NCBI GenBank assembly: GCA_902812365.1
Contig: CADDZC010000043.1
Location: forward strand, 1-34,281
DNA length: 34,281 nucleotides
Source of the DNA: Acidobacteriota bacterium
GTDB lineage: Bacteria > Acidobacteriota > Terriglobia > UBA7540
Reading direction: 5' to 3'
Of the stretch, positions 26,287 through 34,281 are shown piece after piece. Position 1 is the first letter of the stretch. Every line of letters begins with the position of its first letter. The notes under the pieces were generated by a model. It did no database searches. It was not told the DNA's origin and saw only the letters and a program-made list of their open reading frames with translations. Made by a program: the position numbers and the translations under genes.

Positions 26287-26312
26287 GGCCAGCGCCGCAT
26301 CAGGCGCCGGCC
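26287..26312 (-). terminator. Hairpin at the end of the sugar-binding lipoprotein gene
   Basis: GGCCAGCGCC (26287-26296) and GGCGCCGGCC (26303-26312) form a 10-bp stem with one G-T type wobble and a 6-base loop, beginning at the stop codon of the lipoprotein gene and placed just before the rpmH promoter. No T run follows, so termination strength is uncertain. Confidence 0.45.
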
Positions 26313-27328
26313 TAAGGGGTCACCTGGCCGGGACGGGGGATGAAGTTGCTTTCTGCCGCCTGGTAGGCGCTCAGAGTGTTCTTGTCGACAACGCCAATGC
26401 CTGTATCGACCAAGGTGGGAAGTGGAGATGCCGGAGCCGTGCGCCAGTCCTTGAATTCATGTACAACGTTATGGTGGAGATCATCCAGAAACCGCAGACC
26501 GTAAAAAGCCATGGTGTATGGCTTCTGAGCGATGGAGGCTACAATGGCCCCTCGTGAAATCCAATCGAGCGTCTCGGGATCCTTATCCATGGCCAGTATG
26601 GGTACTTTGCCGTCCAGATTGAGCCGATGAAACGCGTCGGCGGCGCCAGATCCCCCCGAAGCTTCAAGGCTGAGCACCCCATCAAAGTCTTTGTGGGCGT
26701 TCAGGAGGGCAGAAATTCCGTCGTCAGCCTTTCCTGGATCGCCGTTGTCATTGATAACCTGGAAAATTTTCATCTTTGGATATCCGGCAAATACGTCTTT
26801 CACTCCCCGCAGGCGCTCGTCCAGATTCAGCTGTCCGGGGATCGTGACAATCACCACTAGGCCTTCGCCATTCAACGCCTGGGCGAGCCGCCGCGCGCTG
26901 GCTTGGCCGGCGCGAAAATTGTCGGTGCCGATGAACATCAGCCGGCGCGAGCCGGGGCAGTCGTTGTCGATGCAGATCACCGGAATTCCTTCACTGACAG
27001 CCTGATCGATCGCCGACTTGAAAATTTCGGATTGTGCCGGCGACACCAAAATGCCATCAGGGTGCATGGCCAGGGCGTCCTTAAACGCCTGCAGTTCCTG
27101 CTGGGGCGAATAGGTATCCGGTCCCGTAAAGTCAGACTTAACCCCGAATCCCAGTTGCTTGATGGCGTCCGCCCAGCCGGCCTTGGCTTCCAGCCAGTAA
27201 GGCAACTTGATGTTATTCGCCACGAATATATAGTTCTCGCCTTGGTGGGGGGCTTTGCCGCAAGAAGCGAGGAACAGTGCCGCCGGAACCAGGAAAAGAA
27301 CGGTCAAGGGTCGTTGGGCTCGTCTCAT
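26312..27328 (-). CDS. Sugar-type periplasmic binding lipoprotein (ribose/LacI-like fold)
   Basis: A 338-residue substrate-binding protein of the ribose/xylose ABC class. Seen: lipoprotein signal with lipobox LASC and C23 as the lipidated residue, then two lobes: IFVANNIKLPYWLEAKAGWADAIKQLG, DGILVSPAQSE, IPVICIDNDCPGSRRLMFIGTDN (ligand-pocket strand), DGVLSLEASGGSGAADAFHRL and DPETLDWISRGAIVASIAQKPYTMAFYGL. No permease or ATPase gene is next to it, so it is either a solitary binding protein serving a distant transporter or a ligand sensor. The leader carries an 11-bp hairpin directly before the ribosome site (GAGAGGATGG). Ligand unknown, most likely a sugar. Confidence 0.9.
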   Translation of the reverse strand: MRRAQRPLTVLFLVPAALFLASCGKAPHQGENYIFVANNIKLPYWLEAKAGWADAIKQLGFGVKSDFTGPDTYSPQQELQAFKDALAMHPDGILVSPAQSEIFKSAIDQAVSEGIPVICIDNDCPGSRRLMFIGTDNFRAGQASARRLAQALNGEGLVVIVTIPGQLNLDERLRGVKDVFAGYPKMKIFQVINDNGDPGKADDGISALLNAHKDFDGVLSLEASGGSGAADAFHRLNLDGKVPILAMDKDPETLDWISRGAIVASIAQKPYTMAFYGLRFLDDLHHNVVHEFKDWRTAPASPLPTLVDTGIGVVDKNTLSAYQAAESNFIPRPGQVTP

Positions 27329-30148: not shown

Positions 30149-31126
30149 TCACCCCAGCCACTCGGGATTGTGGGCGGTGCCGTCGAACATCGACGTGGTT
30201 TTAAATGGTTCGTATTGTCCGGTGCGGGCGGCAGCCTCGGTTTTAGCCAGCAGGGCTTCGACGGTCACGCCATCCATGGGCCGGAAGGTTCGGGCCGCCT
30301 CGATGGCCTGGTCGAGCCTTTCCATGCTGTCGCAGCCCGTAATGACCACCGATGTCGGCAGATTCAGAGCATAATGCAAGCACTCGACGGGAGTGACTAG
30401 GCCACTCTTCAGCACCCAACCATCGCCCAGGGGCTTCATTCCCAACACCGCGATCCCGCGCTCGACCAGCTTGGGAACCACCTCGAGCGCGAAGCTGCGA
30501 AAGTGGGCGTCCATGACGTTGAGCGGCAGCTGGCAGGAATCGAAGTGGAATTGGTGCTGGGCTGCCAACTCCAACATGCGCAGGTGGACCAGCGGGTCTT
30601 TATGGCCGGTGAATCCGATGTAGCGGATTTTACCGGCCCGCTTGGCTTCCTCCAGCGCTTCCAGGGGGCCGCCGGGCGCGAAGAAGCGGTCGGGGTCTTC
30701 CATCCGGATATTTTCGTGGTACTGGATCAGGTCCAGGTGATCGGTTTGCAGGCGTCGCAGCGACTCGTCAATCTGCCGCGCCGCACTCTCCCGGGTGCGG
30801 CCGTCAAATTTCGTCATCAAAAAGACCTTCTGCCGATAGCCGTCGCGGAGCGCTTGGCCCATCCGGCGTTCGCTCTCACCGCCGTTATAGTCCCAGCAGT
30901 TGTCCATAAAGTTGATGCCGCGGTCGACGGCGCTGCGAATGATGCGGATGCTCACGGCGGCGTCTTTGGGCACGCCGATGTGATAGCCGCCCAGACCGAT
31001 CGCCGAGACGCGTTCTCCGGTCTTGCCGAGGGTTCGATAGATCATGCCGCCGGACTCCGCCTGGGCCGGAGCGGCAGCGGCCGTGGCCAAGCCCGCCAAA
31101 ACTCCTAAAGCCTCCCGTCGATTCAT
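30149..31126 (-). CDS. Tat-exported aldo/keto reductase
   Basis: A 325-residue NAD(P)H-dependent aldo/keto reductase. Seen: N-terminal twin-arginine signal [23 protein letters not shown], then the barrel [22 protein letters not shown]. The catalytic tetrad is present as Asp and Tyr in [14 protein letters not shown], Lys in FLMTKFDGR and His in [12 protein letters not shown] folded, cofactor-loaded enzyme exported by Tat to the periplasm fits this signal. The ATG at 31126 is chosen because it starts exactly at the Tat motif; the frame opens nine codons earlier. It sits downstream of a DapA-family lyase and a GntR regulator on the same strand, suggesting sugar or sugar-acid breakdown. Substrate unknown. 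Confidence 0.9.
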
Positions 31127-31180
31127 TGGCAACCCCGCGGCGCGGCGCCTCAATCCCCCGCGGCCGCGCCTCCAGCCGCT

Positions 31181-31209
31181 CTTATAGCGCTATTGCCTAG
31201 GCTTTGCAA
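31181..31209 (-). promoter_or_regulatory. Promoter of the aldo/keto reductase gene
   Basis: On the minus strand TTGCAA (31204-31209), a 17-base spacer and TATAAG (31181-31186) form a plausible sigma-70-type promoter with a start near 31174, about 48 bases ahead of the ATG at 31126. Confidence 0.45.
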
Positions 31210-31280
31210 GTGACTTTTGCATGCCGGCCAGAGCGCCGGCAACGCTTGCCCGCGATGAAACGGTGAACGGGAATTTGCAG

Positions 31281-31298
31281 CCCGGTGTGGACACCGGG
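31281..31298 (-). terminator. Palindromic hairpin after the DapA-family lyase gene
   Basis: CCCGGTGT-GG-ACACCGGG is an 8+8 perfect inverted repeat about 30 bases past the lyase stop codon; in RNA it would fold as a 7-bp stem with a 4-base loop. A second GC hairpin, GCCGGC-N6-GCCGGC, follows at 31222-31239. Neither has a T run. They may end the lyase transcript before the reductase promoter. Confidence 0.4.
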
Positions 31299-31329
31299 TT
31301 GCCGCCGAGGATGCGTGCGAGTTGCGCTG

Positions 31330-32253
31330 CTATGAAAAGCGTGGCAGCCAGCGAGCCAAGCGCCGCGCGTGGCCCGCGATCTCGGCCCGTTCGGCAGCAT
31401 CGAGGTGATAGGCGGGCTCTCGGCAAGACGCTCCGGGAAGGATACCGCGCAAAACCAGCAGCTCCTTTTCACACGCAATCAACATTTCAATCGATTGCAT
31501 CATAAAGTTCAACAGCGGCAGAAGCTCCGCATGGAGGGCACGCGCCTCTCCGGAAGCCTTCTCGGCCAGCAACCGCCAGAGGTGAACAAAAGCAAACGCC
31601 AAGGAAACGGTGGGCATGCAGCCCGCCACGCCTCGGTCGGAGTCGTGGGGCAAGTGGAGCCCCATGTAACCGACCAGACTCCGCAGGCATCCGCCGGAAG
31701 CTTCCCGCAGCCGCTCAATCAGGGGGCCGGACGGGAGGAGGTCCACCTTGACGTGAGTGAAATTGGGGCACTCGCGCTGCGCGGCCAAGAAGAATTGCAG
31801 GTCGAGGGTCCGCCCGGTCTGGAGCGGCGAATATTGTACAATCAGCGGCGCAGGCGCGATCGCCCGGGCCAGGGTTCGGATGTGTTCGAGGGTGGCGTCG
31901 GTGGGAGGGTTGAGAAAGAAAGGGGGAATCACCATGACGGCCCCGGCTCCCGCATCAACGGCGTGACGGGCTTGTTGCACGGCGAGGTGAGTGGCGTGTT
32001 CCGGCACGGAGACGATGACCGGGACGCGCCCCGCGCTGTGACGAAGGCTCAGCTTGGTGACGGTTTCCCGCTCCCGGTCAGACAGCTTGTAGTATTCGCC
32101 GGCCAAGCCGAACAGCGCAAGGGCTTGGACGCCATCCGCGATGGCTGCATCGATCAATCGCTGTAAAGCCTCGAAGTCGATGCTTCCGTCCGCGGTAAAG
32201 GGCGTGGCGAGAATCGGAATAATTCCGTTCAGTGCGGCGGCGGCGGTCTTCAT
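31330..32253 (-). CDS. DapA-superfamily (NAL/KDG-type) aldolase or dehydratase
   Basis: A 307-residue TIM-barrel enzyme of the dihydrodipicolinate synthase/N-acetylneuraminate lyase superfamily, which uses a Schiff-base lysine to cleave or form 2-keto acids. Seen: GIIPILATPFTADGSIDFEAL at the N terminus, catalytic Tyr Y141 in IVQYSP and Schiff-base Lys K169 in THVKVDLLPSG. The usual G-T/S-T-G-E loop reads GLAGE (49-53), so the Thr residues needed for true DapA proton relay are missing. It is therefore not lysine-pathway DapA but more likely a catabolic lyase or dehydratase for a sugar acid. It lies 88 bases after the GntR regulator on the same strand. Confidence 0.85.
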   Translation of the reverse strand: MKTAAAALNGIIPILATPFTADGSIDFEALQRLIDAAIADGVQALALFGLAGEYYKLSDRERETVTKLSLRHSAGRVPVIVSVPEHATHLAVQQARHAVDAGAGAVMVIPPFFLNPPTDATLEHIRTLARAIAPAPLIVQYSPLQTGRTLDLQFFLAAQRECPNFTHVKVDLLPSGPLIERLREASGGCLRSLVGYMGLHLPHDSDRGVAGCMPTVSLAFAFVHLWRLLAEKASGEARALHAELLPLLNFMMQSIEMLIACEKELLVLRGILPGASCREPAYHLDAAERAEIAGHARRLARWLPRFS

Positions 32254-32341
32254 GGGCTCCTGGGGGCCGCTTCTTCCTCACCCTCTCGAACATCGGCGGT
32301 GCCGTGAAGGGGATGGTAGGAAGGATCGGGCGCATAAGCAA

Positions 32342-33118
32342 TTAAGAATCCGGGGAAGGCATGACGTCAAAAAAGAACGGGATATGGTCGCGGAGGGAAG
32401 CTTCGAGTTCCCACCGGTCGTAAAGCTCGAGTCGCTCCCGCAGGCTGCTCTGGATGTGTTCGGAGACCAGGCGCGAGGCTCGCCGCGGGTCCTGCTCGAC
32501 CACAGCCTGGAGTATCCCGGCGTGCTCTTGATAAATCTTTTCCAATAAAGCCGCGTCGTGTCCTTCGCGCCGCATGGCGAAGATGCGAATGAGCAGCCGC
32601 GTATCGTTGACGAGCTTCAGGATGCGGCCGTTAGCGGCCAGCCGGATCAACAAAGTGTGAAAACCCAGATCATAGGCCACGAAGCGAGACATTCCCACCC
32701 GGTCAAGGGCCGGCTGGCCCGACTGGAGCAGGTGTTCTTTGAAGGAGCGGATCGAGTTGTTCAAGGAGGTCAACTTGGCCAGATCAAGCTGTCGGAGCGG
32801 GTGAGACGCGGCTTTGCCGACGGCATAGGTTTCCAGGGCCTCCCGTAGTTCATAAAGATCAATGATGTCCTGCCGCGTCAGTTTGGCGACGACCGCTCGG
32901 CGGTTGGGAGTCTGTTCGACCAGCCCTTCGGCAGCGAGTTGCGTAAGCGCTTCCCGAATCGGGGTGCGACTGATACCGAGTTCCTTGGCCAGGGTGACTT
33001 CAGAGATGGCGGCACCGGCGGTAATCACTCCCGAGGTTATTTTCTGATGAATATGAAGATAGGCCCTCTCCCGAGCTGAGCGCGAAGCGCGTCCTCCGGC
33101 CGGGCTTTCAGCGTTCAT
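32342..33118 (-). CDS. GntR-family regulator with FCD domain (FadR subfamily)
   Basis: A 258-residue transcription regulator. Seen: winged helix-turn-helix (residues about 15-80) with ISEVTLAKELGISRTPIREALTQLAAEGLVEQTPNRRAVV, and an all-helical FCD ligand domain (about 85-235) with the metal ligands D150 and H154 (YDLGFHTLL), H199 (YQEHAGIL) and H221 (VSEHIQSSL) all present. Such regulators usually respond to a carboxylated sugar or organic acid. The ATG at 33118 has GGAGAGGGT just before it; the frame opens 47 codons earlier without family similarity. It heads lyase and reductase genes and faces a divergent TonB-dependent receptor, whose promoter carries a likely operator. Confidence 0.93.
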   Translation of the reverse strand: MNAESPAGGRASRSARERAYLHIHQKITSGVITAGAAISEVTLAKELGISRTPIREALTQLAAEGLVEQTPNRRAVVAKLTRQDIIDLYELREALETYAVGKAASHPLRQLDLAKLTSLNNSIRSFKEHLLQSGQPALDRVGMSRFVAYDLGFHTLLIRLAANGRILKLVNDTRLLIRIFAMRREGHDAALLEKIYQEHAGILQAVVEQDPRRASRLVSEHIQSSLRERLELYDRWELEASLRDHIPFFFDVMPSPDS

Positions 33119-33268
33119 ACCCTCTCCATTCGGGAAATCATGGCACAGAACCACTCGGCGGTTGGCCGATTTTTTCGGATATTGAAGCGCCGGCTGAAAA
33201 CTCCAGCAGGAGCCGAGGGCGGATACGCCGCGCCATGCGGCGAATCGCCCGGACGTCAAAATTTCTTC

Positions 33269-33297
33269 TTGACATGGGGGACGCTCTTCAAGATACT
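33269..33297 (+). promoter_or_regulatory. Promoter of the right-hand TonB-dependent receptor gene
   Basis: TTGACA (33269-33274), a 17-base spacer and GATACT (33292-33297): a consensus -35 and a 4/6 -10 at ideal distance. Transcription would start near 33304, giving a leader of about 113 bases before the ATG at 33417. It lies in the 298-base gap between the divergent GntR and receptor genes, which holds no other gene. Confidence 0.65.
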
Positions 33298-33304
33298 CAT
33301 CCTA

Positions 33305-33332
33305 CATCATGTCGACAGTGGTCGACAAGATG
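33305..33332. promoter_or_regulatory. 28-bp inverted repeat, candidate GntR/FCD operator
   Basis: The arms CATCATGTCGAC (33305-33316) and GTCGACAAGATG (33321-33332) match in 11 of 12 positions around a 4-base centre. The repeat lies exactly at the predicted transcription start of the TonB-receptor promoter, where a bound repressor would block initiation. GT-xx-AC cores are typical of FadR-subfamily operators, and the GntR/FCD gene is the divergent neighbour. Confidence 0.6.
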
Positions 33333-33416
33333 TGTTTTTGCGAGGAGCGGAAGGCGATTTTCAACCTAAGTTTAATCTCACGATTAGGCGGTGCCAACCA
33401 AGCCGAGGAGGAAACC

Positions 33417-34281
33417 ATGGTCGGGAAAATGACCACAGGCGTGCGGATAATCATGCTTGTCCTGGTGTGGGCGGGCGGCCTGCGAGCGCAGTTCATACCG
33501 GGTGGAAACGTGGCGGTTACGGTGAAAGATCCCACTGGGGCCCTCGTTCCCAACGCCGTCATCACCCTGACCAATACCCAAACTGGCGTCGTCGTGGATT
33601 CGGCGAAGTCCGGTAAGAACGGAGAAGCACTCTTTCGGACGGTGCCTCCCGGGACGTATCGGGTTCAGGTTACAGCCCAAGGCTTCCGGACTGCGGTACA
33701 GGAGAACGTACCGGTGTCGGTAGGGCAGGCCACGACCGTGGATGTGACGCTGAGCGTCGGCAGCACCAGCCAAACGGTTACGGTGACCGGGGCTACTCCG
33801 GTTTTGAATACCGTTTCAGGAAGCGTGGGGACGGTCATCAGCAATACCTTGATTCAAAATCTACCGCTCGGCGGGCGCAACCCGATGATGCTGGAGTTCC
33901 TGGTGCCGGGGGTGAGTTGGGGTCTGGGAGCGCAATTCGGAGATATGAACTTCTTCGGGACGAACGGCGTCGCGCAAGGGCTTGGAACTTTTCAGTCCTC
34001 TTATATCTCTATAGGGGGCAGCAACACGCGGCAAAATGCGTTCATGCTGGACAGCACGCAGAACAACCATAACGAGCAGATCGGCTTTGTGCCTAACGTC
34101 GACCAAGTGCAAGAGTTGAGCGTGCTGCCCAATGCCTATGACGCGCAGAACGGGGTAGGGGCCACGACGATCGTTGCTGTCACTAAGAGCGGCACTAACC
34201 AGTTCCACGGCAATCTCTTTGAGTTCGTTCAGAACGACATCTTCAATGCCAACAATTTCTTCGCCAATCTTGCCGGCAAGC
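33417..34281 (+). CDS. TonB-dependent receptor, Oar-like (partial, runs off right edge)
   Basis: The first 288 codons of an outer-membrane receptor; the rest lies beyond the window. Seen: signal peptide (VRIIMLVLVWAGGLRAQ), a carboxypeptidase-regulatory-like beta-sandwich (about 28-118: VAVTVKDPTGALVPNAVITLTN, FRTVPPGTYRVQVTAQGF), VTVTGATPVLNT, and the plug domain with QNLPLGGRNPMML, ISIGGSNTRQNAFMLDS and QELSVLPNAYDAQNGVGATTIVAVTKSGTNQFHG. The ATG has GAGGAGGAAA close upstream. By position it is the uptake partner of the GntR-lyase-reductase group. It shares architecture with the receptor at 9834-12788 but is not a near-copy. Confidence 0.93.
   Translation, partial: MVGKMTTGVRIIMLVLVWAGGLRAQFIPGGNVAVTVKDPTGALVPNAVITLTNTQTGVVVDSAKSGKNGEALFRTVPPGTYRVQVTAQGFRTAVQENVPVSVGQATTVDVTLSVGSTSQTVTVTGATPVLNTVSGSVGTVISNTLIQNLPLGGRNPMMLEFLVPGVSWGLGAQFGDMNFFGTNGVAQGLGTFQSSYISIGGSNTRQNAFMLDSTQNNHNEQIGFVPNVDQVQELSVLPNAYDAQNGVGATTIVAVTKSGTNQFHGNLFEFVQNDIFNANNFFANLAGK

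Follow-up and report, generated by a model that had tools for sequence, protein, structure and literature searches.

The right-hand end of contig CADDZC010000043.1 (assembly GCA_902812365.1 of a soil bacterium of the Acidobacteriota, class Terriglobia) looks like an ordinary regulated uptake-and-catabolism locus with an interesting lyase. The window, i.e., the whole stretch of 34,281 nucleotides that was analyzed, is the entire contig (C43) of a 3.5-Mb assembly in 123 contigs. On its minus strand, from right to left, lie genes for a GntR/FCD regulator, a lyase of the dihydrodipicolinate synthase (DHDPS)/N-acetylneuraminate lyase (NAL) superfamily, an aldo/keto reductase, and ribosomal protein L28, and a TonB-receptor-type gene, of which about 288 first codons are present, runs divergently from the regulator gene on the plus strand. 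We give about an even chance to the reading that the locus serves GntR-repressed uptake and one step of a nonphosphorylative sugar-acid pathway, the other steps of which are encoded elsewhere in the genome. An earlier, sequence-only reading had joined receptor, regulator, lyase, and reductase into one unit in which the substrate is partly processed outside the cytoplasm. The four genes exist but do not form one conserved unit; the regulator and the receptor do recur as a divergent pair, conserved in two other genera, and the lyase belongs to a branch of the superfamily that includes L-2-keto-3-deoxyarabonate dehydratase (KdaD). Feature coordinates are collected in Table 1.

A lyase of the Gln type related to KdaD

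We compared the residues of the lyase with those of Escherichia coli DapA, NanA, YagE, and YjhH and of the KdaD structure sequence. Its Schiff-base lysine, Lys169, aligns with DapA Lys161 and with the lysine of KdaD, but the position of DapA Tyr133 is occupied by Gln140 (VQYSP versus LYNVP), and the visible tyrosine, Tyr141, is the residue after it, shifted by one. The sequence-only statement that the enzyme keeps both the Schiff-base Lys and the Tyr is thus right for the lysine and wrong for the tyrosine, and the replacement of Tyr by Gln is likely to change the chemistry of the enzyme. One residue is inserted behind the lysine, giving K-V-D (Asp171) versus K-E in DapA, and the loop at residues 49 to 53 reads GLAGE instead of GTTGE, as had been noted. 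The accompanying claim that the lyase is not DapA stands, as this identity is ruled out by the loop, by Gln140, and by an NCBIfam dapA score of 84.5 bits, below the cut-off of 206; the DapA of this genome is probably the product of a gene on contig C72 (PF00701, 323 bits; loop GTTGE). Assignment to NanA or to the YagE/YjhH-type aldolases was also rejected, given the replaced Tyr and the position of all three outside the Gln branch of the tree.

KdaD of Azospirillum brasilense (3fkk and 7c0c) is described as having Gln143 in place of the Tyr and Glu173 as a base that is unconserved in other DHDPS/NAL enzymes (PMC9795676), and its catalytic glutamate is reported to set it apart (PMC13398020; both as stated in the passages cited). 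The lyase has in common with KdaD the DHDPS fold, the Schiff-base lysine, Gln for the catalytic Tyr, and the extra residue that gives K-x-acidic. A profile of ten Gln-type sequences found KdaD as its best match (7c0c/3fkk, 2.4e-53; next other enzyme, 6.4e-47). The best fold matches by E-value of a structure model of the lyase (pLDDT 92.7) were likewise 3fkk/7c0c; KdaD superposes on this model with a TM score of 0.88 to 0.89 at 26% identity, with all DHDPS structures close.

In a maximum likelihood tree of 67 rows, from which the columns around Tyr133 and Lys161 were omitted, 41 Gln-type rows, including KdaD and the window lyase, share one branch (100/99), and the remaining 26 rows are Tyr-type. 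This phylogeny, which the sequence-only reading had suggested as a check, leaves YagE, YjhH, and NanA outside the Gln branch. Within it, the grouping of the window lyase with L077 (100/93) and then with L078 (100/98) is firm, and support is lower (94/94) for the wider clade, which takes in L079 and rows from rumen Firmicutes, Streptomyces, Embleya, Halocatena, and an E. coli plasmid. In taxonomic terms, the lyase clade spans Acidobacteriota, rumen Firmicutes, Actinomycetota, and a haloarchaeon, together with the E. coli plasmid. The KdaD pair forms its own branch (100/100) within the Gln-type branch, with the window lyase outside the pair. At the place of KdaD Glu173, an Asp is found in the window lyase, L077, L078, L038, L079, L226, L228 to L231, and L236, and a Glu is found in the rumen Firmicutes rows and L227. 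Lyase matches at E <= 1e-45 occur in 15 of the 399 genomes of the class sample, in which the best few candidates per genome were scored; the closest relative is in G030, a genome of the same family.

Because of Gln140, Lys169, the K-x-D motif, the top profile and fold matches, and the tree branch held in common with KdaD, the lyase appears to be KdaD-like and is more likely a dehydratase than an aldolase. It is classed as KdaD-like rather than as KdaD itself because Asp171 stands where KdaD has Glu173.

Neighbors of the lyase relatives and candidate pathway genes

We surveyed, at E <= 1e-8, the genes within 7 kb of the lyase at 15 other loci, namely L079 and 14 loci that belong to the clade, using queries partly drawn from the same loci that were counted; several of these loci have short flanks (67 bases on one side of L038). 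A sugar-acid dehydratase was found near the lyase in 12 of them, of the IlvD/Edd type in L039, L040, L042, L043, L045, L171, L172, and L175 and of the enolase type in L078, L243, L041, and L173. A short-chain dehydrogenase/reductase (SDR) was found in 9 of the 15 (that of L175 being merely 33% identical), a TonB receptor in 3 (L037, L038, and L243), and a regulator of the window type in 1 (28% identity, on the E. coli plasmid). The same queries at 29 weaker-match loci recovered a dehydratase at none, an SDR at six, and a receptor at none; this control (L046 to L074) was added afterwards, comes from other organisms, includes several short loci, and is Tyr-type where represented in the residue table. 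Two more wide contexts comprised L244, with an enolase gene (54%) and a receptor, and L246, with neither.

Pfam matches beside the relatives include SDR, GH78 rhamnosidase, and alpha-galactosidase-type domains in L037, enolase and SDR in L078, IlvD/Edd in L039, DgoK in L040, and an alpha-L-fucosidase domain in L043. The L243 genes run receptor, rhamnosidase-like, metallo-beta-lactamase (MBL)-like, lyase, enolase, the MBL being called by eye and by similarity to an L078 protein that itself has no Pfam match. In Halocatena (L173), an alpha-L-rhamnosidase is annotated and an enolase-type gene is present. In NCBIfam, L-rhamnonate dehydratase is the best match, though short of its cut-off, for the enolase-type proteins of both L078 and L243; the SDRs resemble sugar dehydrogenases only in general terms. 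This company of SDR, lactonase-like, enolase-superfamily dehydratase, and rhamnosidase genes resembles the nonphosphorylative L-rhamnose and L-fucose pathways, which run via L-2-keto-3-deoxyrhamnonate (L-KDR) and L-2-keto-3-deoxyfuconate (L-KDF). In the known routes, these intermediates are cut by an aldolase or oxidized by a 4-dehydrogenase, and a Gln-type DHDPS enzyme is not named in the parts of the two sources cited (PMC11199699 and PMC3870299).

A 2-keto-3-deoxy sugar acid is the likely type of substrate, in agreement with the oxidized sugar or 2-keto-acid substrate of the sequence-only reading. The step possibly belongs to an L-rhamnose-like nonphosphorylative pathway, although this is a lean and not a proof. 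Against rhamnose, the solved structures nearest to the L078 enolase, 3stp, 3sqs, and 3ssz, carry the names galactonate dehydratase or mandelate racemase, with rhamnonate dehydratases ranking behind them, and 2-keto-3-deoxygalactonokinase genes lie in the IlvD-type clusters of rumen Firmicutes and the E. coli plasmid.

Elsewhere in the genome, adjacent genes on contig C88 encode an SDR and an enolase-type protein. The latter has 46% identity to the L078 enolase, with L-rhamnonate dehydratase as best NCBIfam match (239 bits versus a cut-off of 393), and the best solved match of the SDR is 6d9y, described in the cited part of PMC11199699 as a putative L-KDR 4-dehydrogenase. An IlvD/Edd-type gene on C60 is 45% identical to that of L039 (36% for one on C44), and four GH78-type matches exceed the Pfam cut-off. 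With the C88, C60, and GH78 genes, a pathway is conceivable; no link ties any of them to the window.

The E. coli locus, L171, lies on plasmid pWP4-S18-ESBL-07_1 (~162-170 kb), which is typed as conjugative, in a cluster of 2-dehydro-3-deoxygalactonokinase, aldolase, transporter, IlvD-type dehydratase, Gln-type lyase, and FadR/GntR genes. Among 5426 E. coli genomes, this lyase gene turned up in one, and that occurrence is the plasmid itself.

A conserved regulator-receptor pair with a candidate operator

The regulator combines a GntR helix-turn-helix (PF00392) with an FCD domain (PF07729), both over the Pfam cut-offs, and the receptor fragment contains a CarboxypepD_reg domain and 31 of the 838 positions of the barrel model (OMP_b-brl_4), where the contig ends. 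Regulator orthologues in genomes of two other genera (84% identical in G001 and 71% in G014) are divergent to receptors that are 92% and 64% identical to that of the window, the next receptors being 39% or less. The association of FCD regulator and TonB receptor that the sequence-only reading had pointed out is therefore a conserved one. Neither lyase nor reductase was found with these two pairs within the contig stretch read.

The three spacers (window, G001, and G014) keep a TTGACA block and GTCGAC, and most other bases are not kept; GTCGAC is in tandem in the G001 spacer and single in that of G014. A promoter consensus scan found 2 sites in the region versus 0.5 in shuffles, and the tandem site of the window lies directly behind the -10 box of the receptor promoter, a position that would fit a repressor. 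GTCGAC is the only one of 64 six-base palindromes present in at least 3 of 4 spacers. Among the 350-base regions upstream of the aligned regulator start (n = 31), GTCGAC occurs in 19 (2.6 expected from shuffles; next best palindrome, 8) and TGTCGACA in 16. The first count is partly circular, as GTCGAC was first noticed in the spacers of the present genome (G000), G001, and G014 and in G068, all within the 31; with these four loci removed, it occurs in 15 of 27 regions. Of 27 other receptor genes in the present genome, 3 have it in their upstream regions. Taken together, the tandem site is probably the operator of the GntR/FCD regulator. The 3.5-Mb genome contains the tandem GTCGACNNNNGTCGAC at a single place, a count that shows nothing by itself because a reversed control pattern is equally frequent, and a genome-wide search for a wider regulon through this tandem operator found no further place.

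The regulator (E <= 1e-55) was found in 32 of the 399 genomes of the class. It occurs together with the lyase in three (G000, G334, and G363), on one contig only in G000. A DHDPS-family match lies within 1.5 kb of the regulator in 13 of 30 loci including the window (12 of 29 others; L216 is partial), and a receptor-like match lies within that distance in 11 of 30, some just 25 to 30% identical. The theme of a regulator with a DHDPS-family enzyme thus recurs, with a different enzyme type. The clearest place for the regulator-operator idea is in G068 (L179:9637-11625), where receptor, regulator, and Tyr-type DHDPS genes adjoin and GTCGAC precedes both the receptor and the DHDPS gene.

Such an arrangement would recall DgoR, described in the cited part of PMC7674646 as a FadR-family GntR repressor of D-galactonate genes that binds inverted repeats at the promoter. 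Like DgoR, the regulator proposed here would be a GntR-superfamily repressor of sugar-acid genes, whereas its site has the core GTCGAC and a TonB receptor gene is the target alongside. TGTCGACA was absent among the matches listed in a search of the open-licence literature on FCD-family GntR regulators, and none of these matches dealt with the present locus.

Several further observations concern these genes. In another family, f10, regulator orthologues have TGTCGACA sites, a few of them embedded in longer palindromes, and nearby lie Tyr-type DHDPS-family genes that are 42 to 46% identical to that of L179 (L208, L210, L211, L212, L217, L219 to L222, and L224), possibly a regulon of its own. The receptor DNA (window 33417-34281 versus G001 L176:10310-11174) is 94% identical over 812 bases and 98 to 100% over the last 165, compared with 77% between the regulator genes and 69% between the reductase genes, and the two contigs end at the same homologous base; this would be explained by recent exchange of the receptor gene or by an assembly that broke where sequence is shared. 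The further genes that the sequence-only reading had proposed to look for beyond position 34281 cannot be read, as the end of C43 overlaps no other contig and the contig of G001 stops at the equivalent base. The present genome is rich in such receptors, with 56 PF25183 matches, several per gene in places. One receptor gene of the OMP_b-brl_4 family (G000 C7:23615-26353), which is in several pieces with stops and frame changes, is probably a pseudogene.

Table 1. Features at the right-hand end of the window
Feature	Coordinates	Strand	Basis
GntR/FCD transcription regulator	32342..33118	-	ATG start at 33118, open reading frame open upstream to 33259; Pfam FCD 61.1 bits, GntR 57.7 bits
DHDPS/NAL-superfamily lyase, Gln type, KdaD-like	31330..32253	-	PF00701 106 bits; residue table; tree; profile and fold top matches 7c0c/3fkk
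TonB-receptor-type outer-membrane protein, N-terminal part, cut at contig end	33417..34281	+	CarboxypepD_reg 71.5 bits; OMP_b-brl_4 positions 1-31
Sigma-70-like promoter of receptor gene, TTGACA-17-GATACT	33269..33297	+	Consensus scan; TTGACA block kept in G001 and G014
Probable operator of GntR/FCD regulator, tandem TGTCGACA / GGTCGACA	33310..33327	.	Directly downstream of promoter; GTCGAC conservation
Twin-arginine translocation (Tat)-type aldo/keto reductase, neighbor, probably outside unit	30149..31126	-	PF00248 113 bits; twin-arginine pattern in orthologues

The aldo/keto reductase and other neighbors

The reductase was found at E <= 1e-60 in 56 of 121 genomes, its own included, and the closest reductases of related genomes are 59 to 75% identical. 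Neither lyase nor regulator was matched at E <= 1e-8 in any of 29 orthologue loci (L134 to L162, ~1.5-kb flanks) or in seven wider contexts (L181 to L187), and no reductase lies within 7 kb of the lyase in the 15 other lyase loci. Judged by the refuting condition that the sequence-only reading had set, a lack of co-occurrence of the genes in relatives, the four-gene unit fails; the reductase as part of a conserved unit was rejected, and the proposal that processing starts outside the cytoplasm is not supported. The predicted export fared better. The RR-E-A-L motif of the window copy is a weak twin-arginine match, but of the 29 N-termini available from orthologues at 28 loci (L152 has none), 27 show RR-x-hydrophobic-hydrophobic, and in the two N-termini that do not have the pattern, the start codons were called inside the protein. 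Tat-type reductases of related genomes thus have the twin-arginine start in common, with a weaker RR motif in the window copy.

The catalytic tetrad of aldo/keto reductases consists of D, Y, K, and H, and all four residues line up in the alignment with 9yeb; the enzyme is weakly similar to L-galactose dehydrogenase. It is a conserved enzyme that, judging from its N-terminal patterns, is probably exported, and it most likely has a role of its own. It might conceivably replace the SDR as lactaldehyde reductase or sugar dehydrogenase; it is probably exported, and the lyase relatives have no such reductase.

A sugar-binding lipoprotein-like protein (Peripla_BP_4, 185.6 bits) is encoded at 26312-27328 on the minus strand, and no ABC transporter genes were read beside it. 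A search of the open-licence literature on Acidobacteria with DHDPS, TonB, or rhamnose gave no report of the present locus among the matches listed.

Proposed mechanism and alternative readings

In the mechanism that we favor, the GntR/FCD repressor would bind the tandem TGTCGACA-type operator just downstream of the divergent receptor promoter, and this binding would control both the receptor and the regulator's own operon. The second, presumably cotranscribed, gene of that operon would encode the cytoplasmic KdaD-like enzyme. Lys169 would form a Schiff base with a 2-keto-3-deoxy sugar acid, and the enzyme, having no aldolase tyrosine, would most likely remove water with no C-C cleavage, Gln140 and Asp171 taking the places of KdaD Gln143 and Glu173. 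The effector may be the sugar acid or its 2-keto-3-deoxy derivative. The dehydratase and dehydrogenase usual beside the lyase would be encoded elsewhere in the genome, with candidates on C88 and C60, and the Tat aldo/keto reductase would be an unrelated neighbor.

Several findings weigh against this mechanism. The Tyr-type protein 3na8 leads the single-sequence search of solved structures with the lyase, KdaD being second, and equals or exceeds KdaD in its superposition on the model (TM 0.93 by target length at 31% identity). The lyase has Asp and GLAGE, whereas KdaD has Glu173 and the loop ANFSE, so the reaction may differ from that of KdaD; the gene neighbors of KdaD are also different. The substrate is suggested by neighbors of relatives that are 46 to 59% identical, and neither a sugar-acid dehydratase nor an SDR adjoins the lyase on C43. 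The lyase was not seen to adjoin this regulator in any of the remaining 398 genomes of the class sample, of each of which the best few candidates were scored, 12 of the 31 regulator upstream regions have no GTCGAC site, and the DHDPS genes beside regulator relatives are Tyr-type in all 11 active sites read (of 12), so the regulator may answer to another substrate. As the neighbor control strengthens the tie to sugar acids and the Tyr-type genes loosen the tie to the regulator, our estimate is unchanged.

A less probable but still serious alternative is that the lyase is an aldolase that cleaves a 2-keto-3-deoxy sugar acid such as L-KDR or L-KDF into pyruvate and L-lactaldehyde, with Gln140 or Tyr141 replacing the Tyr. 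The rhamnosidase, enolase-type dehydratase, lactonase-like, and SDR genes that cluster with its nearest relatives would suit such a step, which the known nonphosphorylative deoxyhexose pathway needs at that point (PMC11199699, in the part cited), and the base is Asp, not Glu. None of the 41 Gln-type tree rows has the aldolase tyrosine, however, and KdaD, the sole Gln-type row for which we found a described activity, is in the passages cited above a dehydratase that performs no aldol cleavage. In favor of an aldolase, Watanabe reportedly described in 2020 an L-KDF aldolase of the DHDPS superfamily.

It is also possible, although unlikely, that the lyase is a chance neighbor of a self-contained regulator-receptor pair, with no functional tie. 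The pair recurs in G001 and G014 with no lyase, lyase and regulator rarely occur in the same genome, and such receptors are abundant. On the other hand, the lyase gene is on the strand of the regulator, 88 bases away, DHDPS-family genes stand beside 12 of 29 other regulator loci, GTCGAC sites precede both genes in G068, and a receptor is near 3 of 5 acidobacterial lyase loci. We regard as very improbable that all four genes work together, with the reductase altering the substrate in the periplasm. The reductase gene is on the lyase strand after a gap of 203 bases (31127-31329) in which no terminator- or promoter-like site was found on the minus strand, so a common transcript is possible, and the apparent Tat export of its family and its weak likeness to L-galactose dehydrogenase are also in favor, but its scatter over 56 of 121 genomes, in other contexts where seen, and its absence from the 15 other lyase loci speak against it.

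We speculate, with considerable doubt, that the Gln-type clade with K-x-acidic and an EYYKL-type loop consists of dehydratases of 2-keto-3-deoxy 6-deoxyhexonates (L-KDR and L-KDF) that yield 2,5-dioxohexanoate. The dehydratase branch, "route 2," is stated to be specific for pentose (PMC11199699), and a single dehydrogenase accepts L-2-keto-3-deoxypentonate (L-KDP) as well as L-KDR (PMC6336799; each in the part cited), so action of a KdaD relative on L-KDR is stereochemically plausible. If the idea is true, a "route 2" branch would exist for deoxyhexoses as well.

Overall, these results give a testable function to a group whose members on plasmid records are named merely "dihydrodipicolinate synthase family protein," and a simple residue rule, Gln for Tyr with K-x-acidic, cautions against labeling such proteins aldolases or DapA. 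The results also offer a candidate operator core, GTCGAC, often within TGTCGACA, and a candidate regulon theme for FCD regulators that adjoin TonB receptors in acidobacteria.

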